Position numbers and translations under genes: made by a program. Below the pieces are notes generated by a model. The model saw nothing but the letters and a program-made list of their open reading frames with translations, did no database searches and was not told where the DNA came from. A DNA stretch of 64,000 nucleotides from a cyanobiont of Ornithocercus magnificus (lineage in GTDB: Bacteria > Cyanobacteriota > Cyanobacteriia > PCC-6307 > Cyanobiaceae): NCBI GenBank assembly GCA_007996965.1, contig BIMP01000001.1:186001-250000 (forward strand), read 5' to 3'. Shown piece by piece: positions 2,799 to 7,358 of this stretch (within the stretch, counting starts at the first letter, position 1; each line of letters starts with the position of its first letter).

Positions 2799-5408
2799 TT
2801 AGCCTCGGGCACCGCCAGAAACAGTGACTAGACAGCCCTTGTCAGTGTTGCCGCTTGAGCCGGTTACCTTGCTTACAGGCCAGGTCATTGCTTCATTACG
2901 TTGTTTCGGAGGTGACATAACACTGTTTGTACCAAGACGACTTGGGTTACGTCGTCGGGCAGATACTCCTTCTGTTCCAGTGACATGTTCGCCGCGGTCC
3001 CAGTCATCGCCGGTGATCCTTGCTGAGACGCCTTCTCCTGTGATTCTTGAGGCTGGATTTTGCGCTAGCTCTTCATTCTCTCCACTGAAAGCAGTCTGGA
3101 GCTTCTGAGCAGCGGGGTAGTCAAAGCGGAATTGTTCTGTGCCGGTCACTTTGCCACCAGCCATGTCAAAAGGGCCTGTTATACGGGCACCCTGCTCGTA
3201 GCGTGTGCCAGTAACACCAGAATGACTAGAGCGCTGTTGCTGGGCAGCGCGGGCAGGCGAAACTACACTGAATTGATTCCAGGCAACACTGTCATTAGCC
3301 TGCTTGTCATAGTTGTCAGTTCCAGGAGGTGCAGCGGAACCACAGACTTTCGCCAGCTGGTCAGCTCCTATATAAGGAGTGCCGGTGATGGTATTGCAAG
3401 CACCGCGCTCACTACCAGTCATCACTCCATCAATTCCGGGTTGTAGACCAGTCATTGGTGCTGCAGGAGTACCGAGATTAAGTGGGGTACGTTCTTGAAT
3501 TGCTCTGCTGGCACGACTGTTGCACCATTGGCCTGCTTGCTCAAGTCCAGCATAAGGAGTACCGGTAACTGTTTTACAAGTGCCAGGTTCGTCACCCGTC
3601 ACTAGAGAGGAACGGCCGGTGCGAGTTCCACTCACTACTTGATTGCGGTTTGTGATGCTGAAGCCAACTTTAGCGGCTTCAGCATCAGGCTGTCCACCAC
3701 AGAAAATTTGAACTTGTTCAGTGCTGACGTACTGATCTCCGGTGACACGGTGACACGAGCCGAACTCATTGCCCGTAACTTTGGCAGAGCGACCTACCAA
3801 GGTCCCAGTTATGCCAGAGCCAGAAAGAGTAGAAGATTGGCCAACTTTCATTACGGAGCGGCCCTGTGGCAAAGGATCTGAACCCAGATACTGATCTCCG
3901 GTCAGTTGCCGTGCATAGCCAGCCTCATTGCCTGTGACTCTAGTAGAACGACCTACCATCACTCCGCTTACAGGAAGACCCTGTTCAGTAAGGCTGTGGT
4001 CTACTTTCTGTGGTGAGGGGTTAGATTCTCTACACCAAGAGATATTCTGTTCAGCAGAAATATACTCAGTGCCAGTCACATTCTGACAAGTGCCAGGCTC
4101 GTTGCCGGTAACTTTGTTAGATCGTCCAACCTCATTACCAGTAACAAGATTGCCATGGCTAGTGGAGGTAAGGCGAACTTTGGCGGGCTGACTCATGCTA
4201 GGAGCTGTTTGACAGAAAGTTTGGAAGACCTCAGCACCTAGGTATTCAGTACCGGTAATACTACGACATGTACTGGCCTCATTACCTGTAGTTTTGACCG
4301 AACGGTTGGCTTGAGTACCAGTAACAACTTGACCACTCAACGTTTCACTAACACCAACCTTCCAATAGGCATCTACAGCTACCGCCTGCTGTCGAGCACC
4401 ATGACGGTTAGGACCGGTGGGGCGGTTGCTGCCGGAGCGCTGTCTATCAATAGCTCCCGATTTGTTACGCAGTTCACGTACCCGCTGTGCCAACTCGCGA
4501 CTGGTGAGATCAGGATTGGCCTGCCGAGCAACAGAGGCGGTGCTAGTTGGTTGCCTACTAGCAGATTTGCCGTACTTTGACATTGCCTCACGGCGGGCCA
4601 AAACAAGTGCGCGGCTGGGATTTTCGATGATGTGATGACGCTTAGGAGCGGTTGGCCAACGCTCACTAGAGCGTGTACTCAGAGCAAAAGGAACATTGAC
4701 AGCAGCAGTGGTTGCCTCACTGGCAACACCATGACTGTAGGTTTTTTCAGTAGTAGCAGCTGCCTGCGAGGAGTTGCCATGGCGAATCACGTCGGCACGG
4801 TTGCGATCCCGGCTTGTGTCAGCGGATTTGCCACGGCGAGAAAGTGCCTCACGGCGGGCCAAAACAAGTGCGCGGCTGGGATTTTCGATGATGTGATGAC
4901 GCTTAGGAGCGGTTGGCCAACGCTCACTAGAGCGTGTACTCAGAGCAAAAGGAACATTGACAGCAGCAGTGGTTGCCTCACTGGCAACACCATGACTGTA
5001 GGTTTTTTCAGTAGTAGCAGCTGCCTGCGAGGAGTTGCCATGGCGAATCACGTCGGCACGGTTGCGATCCCGGCTTGTGTCAGCGGATTTGCCACGGCGA
5101 GAAAGTGCCTCACGGCGGGCCAAAACAAGTGCGCGGCTGGGATGACATTGGGGAGAGATATGATGAAAGCGATGGTGCTTGTCGGAAGTCAGCTGGACAT
5201 GCAGTGAACCTGGCGACGTAGAGTCGGTAGGCGCATAGGCTGGTCCTCTAGAAGTAGCTGCATCGACTCGAGTACGCGTAGGGTGAATATCAGCCGCAGT
5301 ACGAACGCGGTTGACATTCAAGCCACCAGCTACTATTGCTCTCTTGCCCGTTGTGGCGAGAACCTTACGGCGCTCGAGTACGAGTTCTCGACTGGAGAGT
5401 CTTGCCAT
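2799..5408 (-). CDS. csoS2: Carboxysome scaffold protein CsoS2, with internally duplicated N-terminal repeat
   Basis: 869-residue disordered scaffold that links Rubisco to the shell during alpha-carboxysome assembly. Basic Rubisco-binding helices of the pattern SRxLVLxRRxxxxxxGK occur near residues 6, 91, 178 and 265, with a related element (SRELAQRVRELRNKSG) near 303. The middle region (about 345-700) holds repeated VTGNExGxC and ITGTxY motifs with paired cysteines. The C-terminal region carries further ITG/VTGT motifs and ends in the conserved shell-binding tail SGNTDKGCLVTVSGGARG. Residues around 91-177 and 178-264 are identical copies of an 87-residue unit, coded by a perfect DNA duplication. 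No second reading frame or slippery site was identified. It starts 109 bases after rbcS and ends just before csoSCA. Confidence 0.95.
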   Translation of the reverse strand: MARLSSRELVLERRKVLATTGKRAIVAGGLNVNRVRTAADIHPTRTRVDAATSRGPAYAPTDSTSPGSLHVQLTSDKHHRFHHISPQCHPSRALVLARREALSRRGKSADTSRDRNRADVIRHGNSSQAAATTEKTYSHGVASEATTAAVNVPFALSTRSSERWPTAPKRHHIIENPSRALVLARREALSRRGKSADTSRDRNRADVIRHGNSSQAAATTEKTYSHGVASEATTAAVNVPFALSTRSSERWPTAPKRHHIIENPSRALVLARREAMSKYGKSASRQPTSTASVARQANPDLTSRELAQRVRELRNKSGAIDRQRSGSNRPTGPNRHGARQQAVAVDAYWKVGVSETLSGQVVTGTQANRSVKTTGNEASTCRSITGTEYLGAEVFQTFCQTAPSMSQPAKVRLTSTSHGNLVTGNEVGRSNKVTGNEPGTCQNVTGTEYISAEQNISWCRESNPSPQKVDHSLTEQGLPVSGVMVGRSTRVTGNEAGYARQLTGDQYLGSDPLPQGRSVMKVGQSSTLSGSGITGTLVGRSAKVTGNEFGSCHRVTGDQYVSTEQVQIFCGGQPDAEAAKVGFSITNRNQVVSGTRTGRSSLVTGDEPGTCKTVTGTPYAGLEQAGQWCNSRASRAIQERTPLNLGTPAAPMTGLQPGIDGVMTGSERGACNTITGTPYIGADQLAKVCGSAAPPGTDNYDKQANDSVAWNQFSVVSPARAAQQQRSSHSGVTGTRYEQGARITGPFDMAGGKVTGTEQFRFDYPAAQKLQTAFSGENEELAQNPASRITGEGVSARITGDDWDRGEHVTGTEGVSARRRNPSRLGTNSVMSPPKQRNEAMTWPVSKVTGSSGNTDKGCLVTVSGGARG
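4585..5143 (-). repeat. Perfect 261-bp tandem duplication within csoS2
   Basis: By eye, 4585-4882 is identical base for base to 4846-5143, an offset of 261 bases (87 codons, in frame). This gives two full units (4585-4845 and 4846-5106) plus a 37-base third partial unit. The unit includes one Rubisco-binding helix and a long linker with AATTEKTYSHGV. The absence of even a synonymous difference implies a very recent duplication, recent gene conversion, or an assembly error. Confidence 0.92.
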
Positions 5409-5517: not shown

Positions 5518-5859
5518 TCAACGGCCCTCAAACACTACAAAACAAGCACCCTGACTTTGAGTGTAGGCATCGTACCCAACTATACGGACGTGATGATTGG
5601 GGTAAGCCCGGTGACAAGCTTCAAGCTCGCTAACAATTACACCTAAATCTTTCTCCCCAAAGAAAGGCAACTTCCAGTAAGACCAGTAGTAACACATAGA
5701 GTTACTAGGGTGGACGTGTTCAATGAGTGGACTCCAGCCCTGATTGATAATGTAGGAAATCTGTTCATAGATTTCCTCTTGGGTCATCGGCGGCAAAAAG
5801 CCAAATGTTTCGAGGGTAGCGACTGTCTGGTAGTCGCCTACTGTGCTCTGGAAAGGCAT
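5518..5859 (-). CDS. rbcS: Ribulose bisphosphate carboxylase small subunit
   Basis: 113-residue Rubisco small subunit (also called cbbS). It shows ETFGFLPPMTQEEIYEQISY near the start, then WSPLIEHVHP, the YYWSYWKLPFFG strand and HHVRIVGYD near the end, all typical of carboxysomal form IA small subunits. Four pairs of small subunits cap the L8 core, and in alpha-carboxysomes the L-S interface is where CsoS2 and CsoSCA peptides bind. It lies 83 bases downstream of rbcL and upstream of csoS2 in the same operon. Confidence 0.97.
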   Translation of the reverse strand: MPFQSTVGDYQTVATLETFGFLPPMTQEEIYEQISYIINQGWSPLIEHVHPSNSMCYYWSYWKLPFFGEKDLGVIVSELEACHRAYPNHHVRIVGYDAYTQSQGACFVVFEGR

Positions 5860-5942: not shown

Positions 5943-7358
5943 TTACTGTTGAATATCGAGCTTGTCGACAGTGTCAAACTCAAATTTGATTTCTTTCCAA
6001 GTCTCCAGTGCAATAGCTAATTCAGGGCTGTGTTTTGCAGCATCCATAAGTATATCTCGGCTTTCTTGCTCTAGGTGGCGACCAGCGTTACGCGCTTTGA
6101 CACAAGCCTCAAGTGCGACACGGTTAGCCGCGGCGCCAGCAGCAGATCCCCAAGGGTGACCATGGGTACCACCACCAAATTGCAGCACTGAGTCATCACC
6201 GAATATAGTGACTAGAGCAGGCATATGCCACACGTGAATACCACCAGAGGCAACAGCAAACACACCAGGCATAGATGCCCAATCCTGATCGAAGAAGTTG
6301 CCACGTCTACGATCTTCAGGAATAAAGGACTCGCGCAGCTGGTCAATGAATCCTAGAGTAGTTTGACGGTCACCCTCCAGTTTTCCAACAACTGTTCCGG
6401 TATGCAGTTGATCACCACCGGATAGACGCAGACACTTAGCAAGAACACGGAAGTGGATGCCATGTTTGGGGTGGCGGTCAATCACTGCGTGCATAGCTCG
6501 GTGTATGTGAAGCAGCATGCCATTTCTGCGACACCAGCGCGCTAAACCAGTATTGGCTGTAAAACCGCCAGTGATAAAATCGTGCATGACAATGGGCATA
6601 TCGAGTTCCTTAGCGAACTCAGCACGCTCATACATCTCCTCAGGCGTGCTAGCAGTCACGTTGAGGTAGTGTCCCTTCCGCTCGCCTGTTTCCTGCTCAG
6701 CTAGCTTGATAGCTTCTGCTACAAACTCGAAGCGATTCTGCCAGCGTTGAAAAGGCTGTGAGTTAATATTCTCGTCATCTTTAGTGAAGTCAAGACCACC
6801 GCGGAGACATTCGTAGACAACGCGGCCGTAGTTTTTTCCTGAAAGGCCCAGCTTTGGCTTAATGGTGCAGCCCAGCAAGGGGCGGCCATACTTATTCATC
6901 CGGTCGCGCTCGACCTGGATGCCATTTGGTGGACCTCCACAGGTTTTTATGAAGGCTAGTGGGAAGCGGATGTCTTCAAGGCGCAGATGTCTTAAAGCCT
7001 TAAAACCAAAGACATTACCGACAAGGGAGGTTAGTACATTTGTGACTGAACCTTCCTCAAACAAGTCAAGAGGATAGGCAACAAAAGCATAGAAGGATTC
7101 CTTGTCGCCGGGGACATCCTCAATGCGATAGCAACGGCCTTTATAAAAGTCGAGATCGGTGAGGAGCTCAGACCACACAGTAGACCATGTGCCGGTAGAG
7201 GATTCAGCAGCTACAGCAGCAGCTACCTCTTCACGGGGTACACCTTCCTGGCCAGTGCATTTGAAGCAGGCCAGTAAGTCGGTGTCTAGAGGGACATAAT
7301 CGGGGGTCCAGTATGTATCTCTGTACTCCTTGACTCCTGCATCGTACTTCTTGCTCAT
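5943..7358 (-). CDS. rbcL: Ribulose bisphosphate carboxylase large subunit (form IA)
   Basis: 471-residue Rubisco large subunit (cbbL), the CO2-fixing catalyst. The N terminus [17 protein letters not shown] is typical of proteobacterial-type form IA enzymes acquired by alpha-cyanobacteria. Visible catalytic elements are [11 protein letters not shown], carrying the carbamylated lysine and Mg ligands; [12 protein letters not shown]; the loop 6 [17 protein letters not shown]; and [10 protein letters not shown]. No key residue seems missing and the length is standard. It is the second gene of the minus-strand cso operon, 93 bases after csoS1. Confidence 0.98.

Follow-up and report, generated by a model that had tools for sequence, protein, structure and literature searches.

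The window analysed here, by which we mean the whole stretch of 64,000 nucleotides, comes from OmCyn, the cyanobiont of Ornithocercus magnificus, and lies on a 1.58-Mb contig of a 1.88-Mb draft genome in 16 contigs. CsoS2 is the carboxysome scaffold whose N-repeats act as a multivalent link in the packing of Rubisco into alpha-carboxysomes, and the window contains a cso operon with all genes on the same strand, namely, in order of transcription, csoS1 (BMC shell), rbcL, rbcS, csoS2, csoSCA and two EutN_CcmL vertex-protein genes. The csoS2 gene (2799..5408, minus strand) is an open frame encoding an 869-aa scaffold protein with an expanded N-terminal domain. Its CsoS2_M middle region (PF12288) scores 707.7 bits, where the cut-off is 22; together with the repeats and the operon this bears out the gene's identification as csoS2 in the first-pass annotation. 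Conservation of the C-terminal region reaches the last residue, relatives aligning through residue 869. Nothing is unusual about the M and C regions, whose 22 VTG-type motifs equal the number in most relatives. The expected binding partners of the scaffold are encoded nearby on the minus strand: rbcS, the Rubisco small subunit (5518..5859, Pfam RuBisCO_small), and rbcL, a form IA-type large subunit (5943..7358), which was identified by PDB matches. The best PDB match of RbcL is the sequence of 7yyo/7zc1, where 7zc1 is the Cyanobium carboxysomal Rubisco, and the top matches include 6UEW, a CsoS2 N-peptide fusion.

Tandem Repeats Finder, applied to the 64-kb window, reports a single array, at 4584-5143, with a period of 261 bp, 2.1 copies, 100% matches and 0% indels, which is far beyond chance. 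Base-by-base comparison by script agrees, so that the perfect in-frame 261-bp duplication proposed from the letters alone holds; its extent was also given correctly, apart from a start at 4585 instead of 4584 and a third copy of 37 instead of 38 bp. The first unit in coding order (4883..5143, minus strand) comprises the N2 helix and the N2-N3 linker, 87 codons in all, and matches the second at 261 of 261 bases. The second unit (4622..4882, minus strand) comprises a helix that we call N2', with an N3-type head and an N2-type tail, and again the linker. The third, partial copy (4584..4621, minus strand) covers the 38 bp with which the N3 helix begins and is the same as the head of either unit. 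Both units start two bases ahead of the PSR codons of one N helix and stop short of the following one; at the duplication junction the linker runs into an N2 tail (PKRHHIIENPSRALVLARREALSRRGK). The array is in frame within the 869 codons of csoS2 and occurs once in the genome. About 358 kb of that genome was sampled for exact direct repeats of more than 55 bp lying within 3 kb, and the array was the only one. An antisense frame of 191 aa (4632-5207, plus strand) is created by the duplicated unit, and we take it to be a by-product of the repeat.

At the protein level the order of N-repeats is N1-N2-N2'-N3-N4. A motif scan matches R-x5-RR-x6-GK four times, at N1 (RELVLERRKVLATTGK, 5343..5390), N2 (RALVLARREALSRRGK, 5088..5135), the extra copy N2' (RALVLARREALSRRGK, 4827..4874) and N3 (RALVLARREAMSKYGK, 4566..4613), each a predicted helix on the minus strand, with the N2 helix predicted at aa 90-104. 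The related element N4 (RELAQRVRELRNKSGA, 4452..4499, minus strand) is likewise a predicted helix and is conserved in relatives. The scan thus confirms two earlier statements, that each unit adds one Rubisco-binding-type helix with its linker and that the protein has four such helices plus a related element. N2' is a hybrid that takes its upstream context and head from N3 and its tail from N2, and it has the consensus N-repeat residues and natural spacing. When the extra copy is aligned to the N2 of relatives, AlphaFold places a helix at N2' with local pLDDT of about 81, and the extra helix is accordingly predicted by the model to fold like N2; when the relatives are gapped at the extra copy, helices appear at N1, N2, N3 and N4 and none at N2', which we attribute to those gaps. 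A PDB search with the 24-residue extra helix matched CsoS2 chains and did not match the N-peptide of 6UEW.

For comparison with relatives we used 220 loci from the same family with a readable N-terminal domain (NTD), which reduce to 193 distinct NTDs and include one genome of the source genus. Exactly three N1-N3-type repeats are found in 192 of the 193, and four only in the csoS2 of the window, whose five repeats depart from the standard cyanobacterial set of N1, N2, N3 and N4. The module spacing of 87 aa falls within the 75-109 aa that naturally separate N2 from N3, whereas the NTD (4323-5408, minus strand) is 362 aa long as opposed to 258-312 aa in 146 relatives. The comparison of repeat counts and spacing that the first-pass annotation had suggested therefore favours its view of a newly expanded array, and one that is lineage-specific, as none of the 192 other distinct NTDs has the same expansion. 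A tree was built by a quick method from the non-duplicated part of the protein, that is, the final portion of the N domain and the M and C regions. In this tree the window sequence is the sister of the whole set of 38 marine Synechococcus sequences of subcluster 5.1 type that were sampled, including WH7803 (SH-aLRT 99), on a long branch of 0.39 and with other cyanobacterial lineages outside; OmCyn was previously placed at the base of subcluster 5.1 (PMC11150560). Among the cyanobacteria, neighbours and outgroups alike have a single unit, and consequently the duplication, as far as the sampled sequences tell, is derived in the window lineage. The NTD of another dinoflagellate symbiont, CregCyn, which shares the lifestyle, is of standard form with no expansion, and no relative was found in viral contigs. 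The tree also contains a csoS2 from a metagenome-assembled genome labelled Bifidobacterium breve (CALPNT020000202.1), nested among Cyanobium-type sequences, which is probably due to contamination or a wrong label.

The origin of the array can be approached through the helix heads. The N2 and N3 heads are alike at 38 of 38 bases in the window and at 21-34 of 38 in 101 relatives, where codons for the same residue in N2 and N3 are identical in about half of the cases (mean synonymous-codon identity 0.50). The N2 head of the window carries alanine, as N3 does, at a position occupied by D or E in most relatives, and 12 of its 12 codons are identical to those of N3. Each unit is bounded by the heads of the N2 and N3 helices and the middle copy is a hybrid, the arrangement that marks exchange between short direct repeats; since the edges are the N2 and N3 helices, a likely mechanism can be named, unequal exchange between N2 and N3. 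The identical heads and the N3-type alanine together suggest two exchanges, which could have occurred in either order, and the most likely history on this reading is one exchange that equalised the heads and one, unequal, that duplicated the module. The paralogous N2 and N3 helices would have come to share an identical 38-bp head by conversion or homogenisation, and unequal recombination or replication slippage between the N2 of one copy and the N3 of another would have doubled the stretch between them, yielding N1, N2, N2' (N3 head and N2 tail), N3 and N4. A separate conversion is the probable cause of the likeness of the heads, with chance substitution a possible one. Another Synechococcus csoS2 (loci L044 and L077) also has an N3-type alanine in the N2 head and no duplication, perhaps by independent substitution or conversion; in L044 the N2 head is identical to N3 at 34 of 38 bp.

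There are no differences between the units over about 67 synonymous sites, giving Ks < ~0.045 unless the units were homogenised. Of the three causes offered earlier for the lack of synonymous change, recency agrees with this estimate, conversion enters as the suggested second event, and artefact loses ground for the reasons given below. Sequence comparison shows the duplication together with its polarity and its hybrid junction, and we infer the exact recombination route. We consider it likely that the array is genuine and that one N-repeat module of csoS2, consisting of a helix and a disordered linker (87 codons), was recently duplicated in frame.

What the additional module does is a separate question. 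Binding of Rubisco through the N-repeats is known for H. neapolitanus and Cyanobium; the binding is multivalent, and eight sites per Rubisco have been seen (PMC12918739, PMC9314367). The notion that N-repeat number sets Rubisco loading, which the first-pass annotation had taken up, is not established, as the published effect on carboxysome size is tied to the number of M-repeats (PMC13370225, PMC12918739) and the N-repeats figure as multivalent binders. A literature search for functional data on a five-repeat cyanobacterial CsoS2 found none. Given the normal spacing and the consensus N-repeat residues, the protein should act normally, with five Rubisco-binding segments instead of four; the five-segment product would then work as a normal CsoS2 with higher avidity for Rubisco, a longer reach, or both, and a change in Rubisco packing is plausible.

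It is about as likely as not that the duplication, although real, is neutral or slightly harmful and went to fixation by drift in a symbiont population of small size, leaving carboxysome behaviour unchanged; this would concern the function of the array and not its origin. The lineage is long-branched and its genome is small, as in host-restricted symbionts. Four repeats suffice everywhere else sampled in the family, and we know of no explanation for why cyanobacteria keep four. Frame, spacing and consensus basic residues have nevertheless all been kept, although recency alone could explain the intact frame. The net charge of the NTD is +33, which is also the median among relatives. Removal of one unit would lower it to +26, slightly less than in any of 146 relatives (27-39); this also speaks against drift but is suggestive only.

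An alternative that overlaps with recent duplication but differs in the age of the array is that the expansion is old and has been held identical by continuing gene conversion or by gain and loss of units, in which case copy number would vary between cells and the two assembled units would be one state of a dynamic array. The N3-like head of the first N2 (A for D/E, all codons as in N3) suggests at least one extra exchange, and a perfect direct repeat of 299 bp is prone to recombination; yet no expanded relative exists among the 192 other distinct NTDs to show such an age, and we regard an old expansion as unlikely.

Finally, the true gene could have one unit, the false one having been added by graph traversal or by a template switch during amplification between the 38-bp heads of N2 and N3. 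The edges of the array are exactly the repeat that such an error would use, the two units are perfectly identical, and the genome is a draft. Presumably it was obtained by whole-genome amplification, which can create template-switch chimeras. However, the longest exact repeat is 38 bp in the one-unit form and 299 bp in the two-unit form, so that an assembler with k > 38 would not be misled into an extra unit, and an exact 77-bp terminal overlap on one small contig is a hint, though not proof, of k=77. Graph assemblers collapse true tandem copies more often than they add false ones. In addition, the array lies within the 1.58-Mb contig, the 358 kb sampled contained no second long-period tandem array, and the perfect 38-bp head is abnormal for N2 and N3 and suggests real recombination. 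The k-mer argument makes assembly error the less likely source of the array, while the homologous breakpoints leave some room for an amplification chimera; taken as a whole, an artefact seems improbable.

A separate observation concerns the small contigs. Two identical CregCyn plasmid proteins have been reported to match several OmCyn proteins (PMC11150560), and the CregCyn genome examined here (G289) has such an identical pair. This 267-aa plasmid protein, with weak HTH/GntR similarity, matches 26 stretches in the genome of the window, all on small contigs (C2-C13 of G000; loci L189-L198 and L203-L221) and none on the 1.58-Mb contig. Terminal overlaps are present on C9, C11 and C13, the last of which would be 4,517 bp as a circle, and the small contigs may represent a plasmid family in the symbiont.

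N-repeat numbers of 2, 4 and 5 have been recorded across bacteria by Cai 2015 (PMC4499774, Table 1), so that there is precedent for five N-repeats; the novelty lies in a cyanobacterial CsoS2 with five repeats that is caught as a perfect duplication. The CsoS2 of marine Synechococcus, Prochlorococcus and Cyanobium (PMC4499774) shares with that of the window the operon, the N/M/C architecture, the N-repeat motif and the count of M-region motifs, but has four N-repeats (N1-N4) instead of five. Thioalkalivibrio sp. ALR17-21 (PMC4499774, Table 1) likewise has five N-repeats; its CsoS2 differs in being proteobacterial, 1014 aa long and expanded in the M region too, with 8 M-repeats. The Halothiobacillus neapolitanus N-peptide bound to Rubisco (PDB 6UEW) belongs to the same helix class, and the RbcL of the window matches 6UEW strongly; binding of Rubisco by the CsoS2 of the window is deduced from the consensus.

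One could go further and propose that this obligate dinoflagellate cyanobiont raised the Rubisco-binding valency of its scaffold from four to five, as an adaptation altering or restoring Rubisco condensation in the host chamber, by a module duplication that is very recent and possibly still variable in copy number; we hold this joint reading to be rather improbable. Returning to the recent duplication itself, a naturally occurring CsoS2 with five repeats, whose modules are identical and normally spaced, would provide a clean test of valency, as exactly one unit separates the four-repeat from the five-repeat form. It also suggests that such arrays may expand when neighbouring helices become identical and then exchange with one another.
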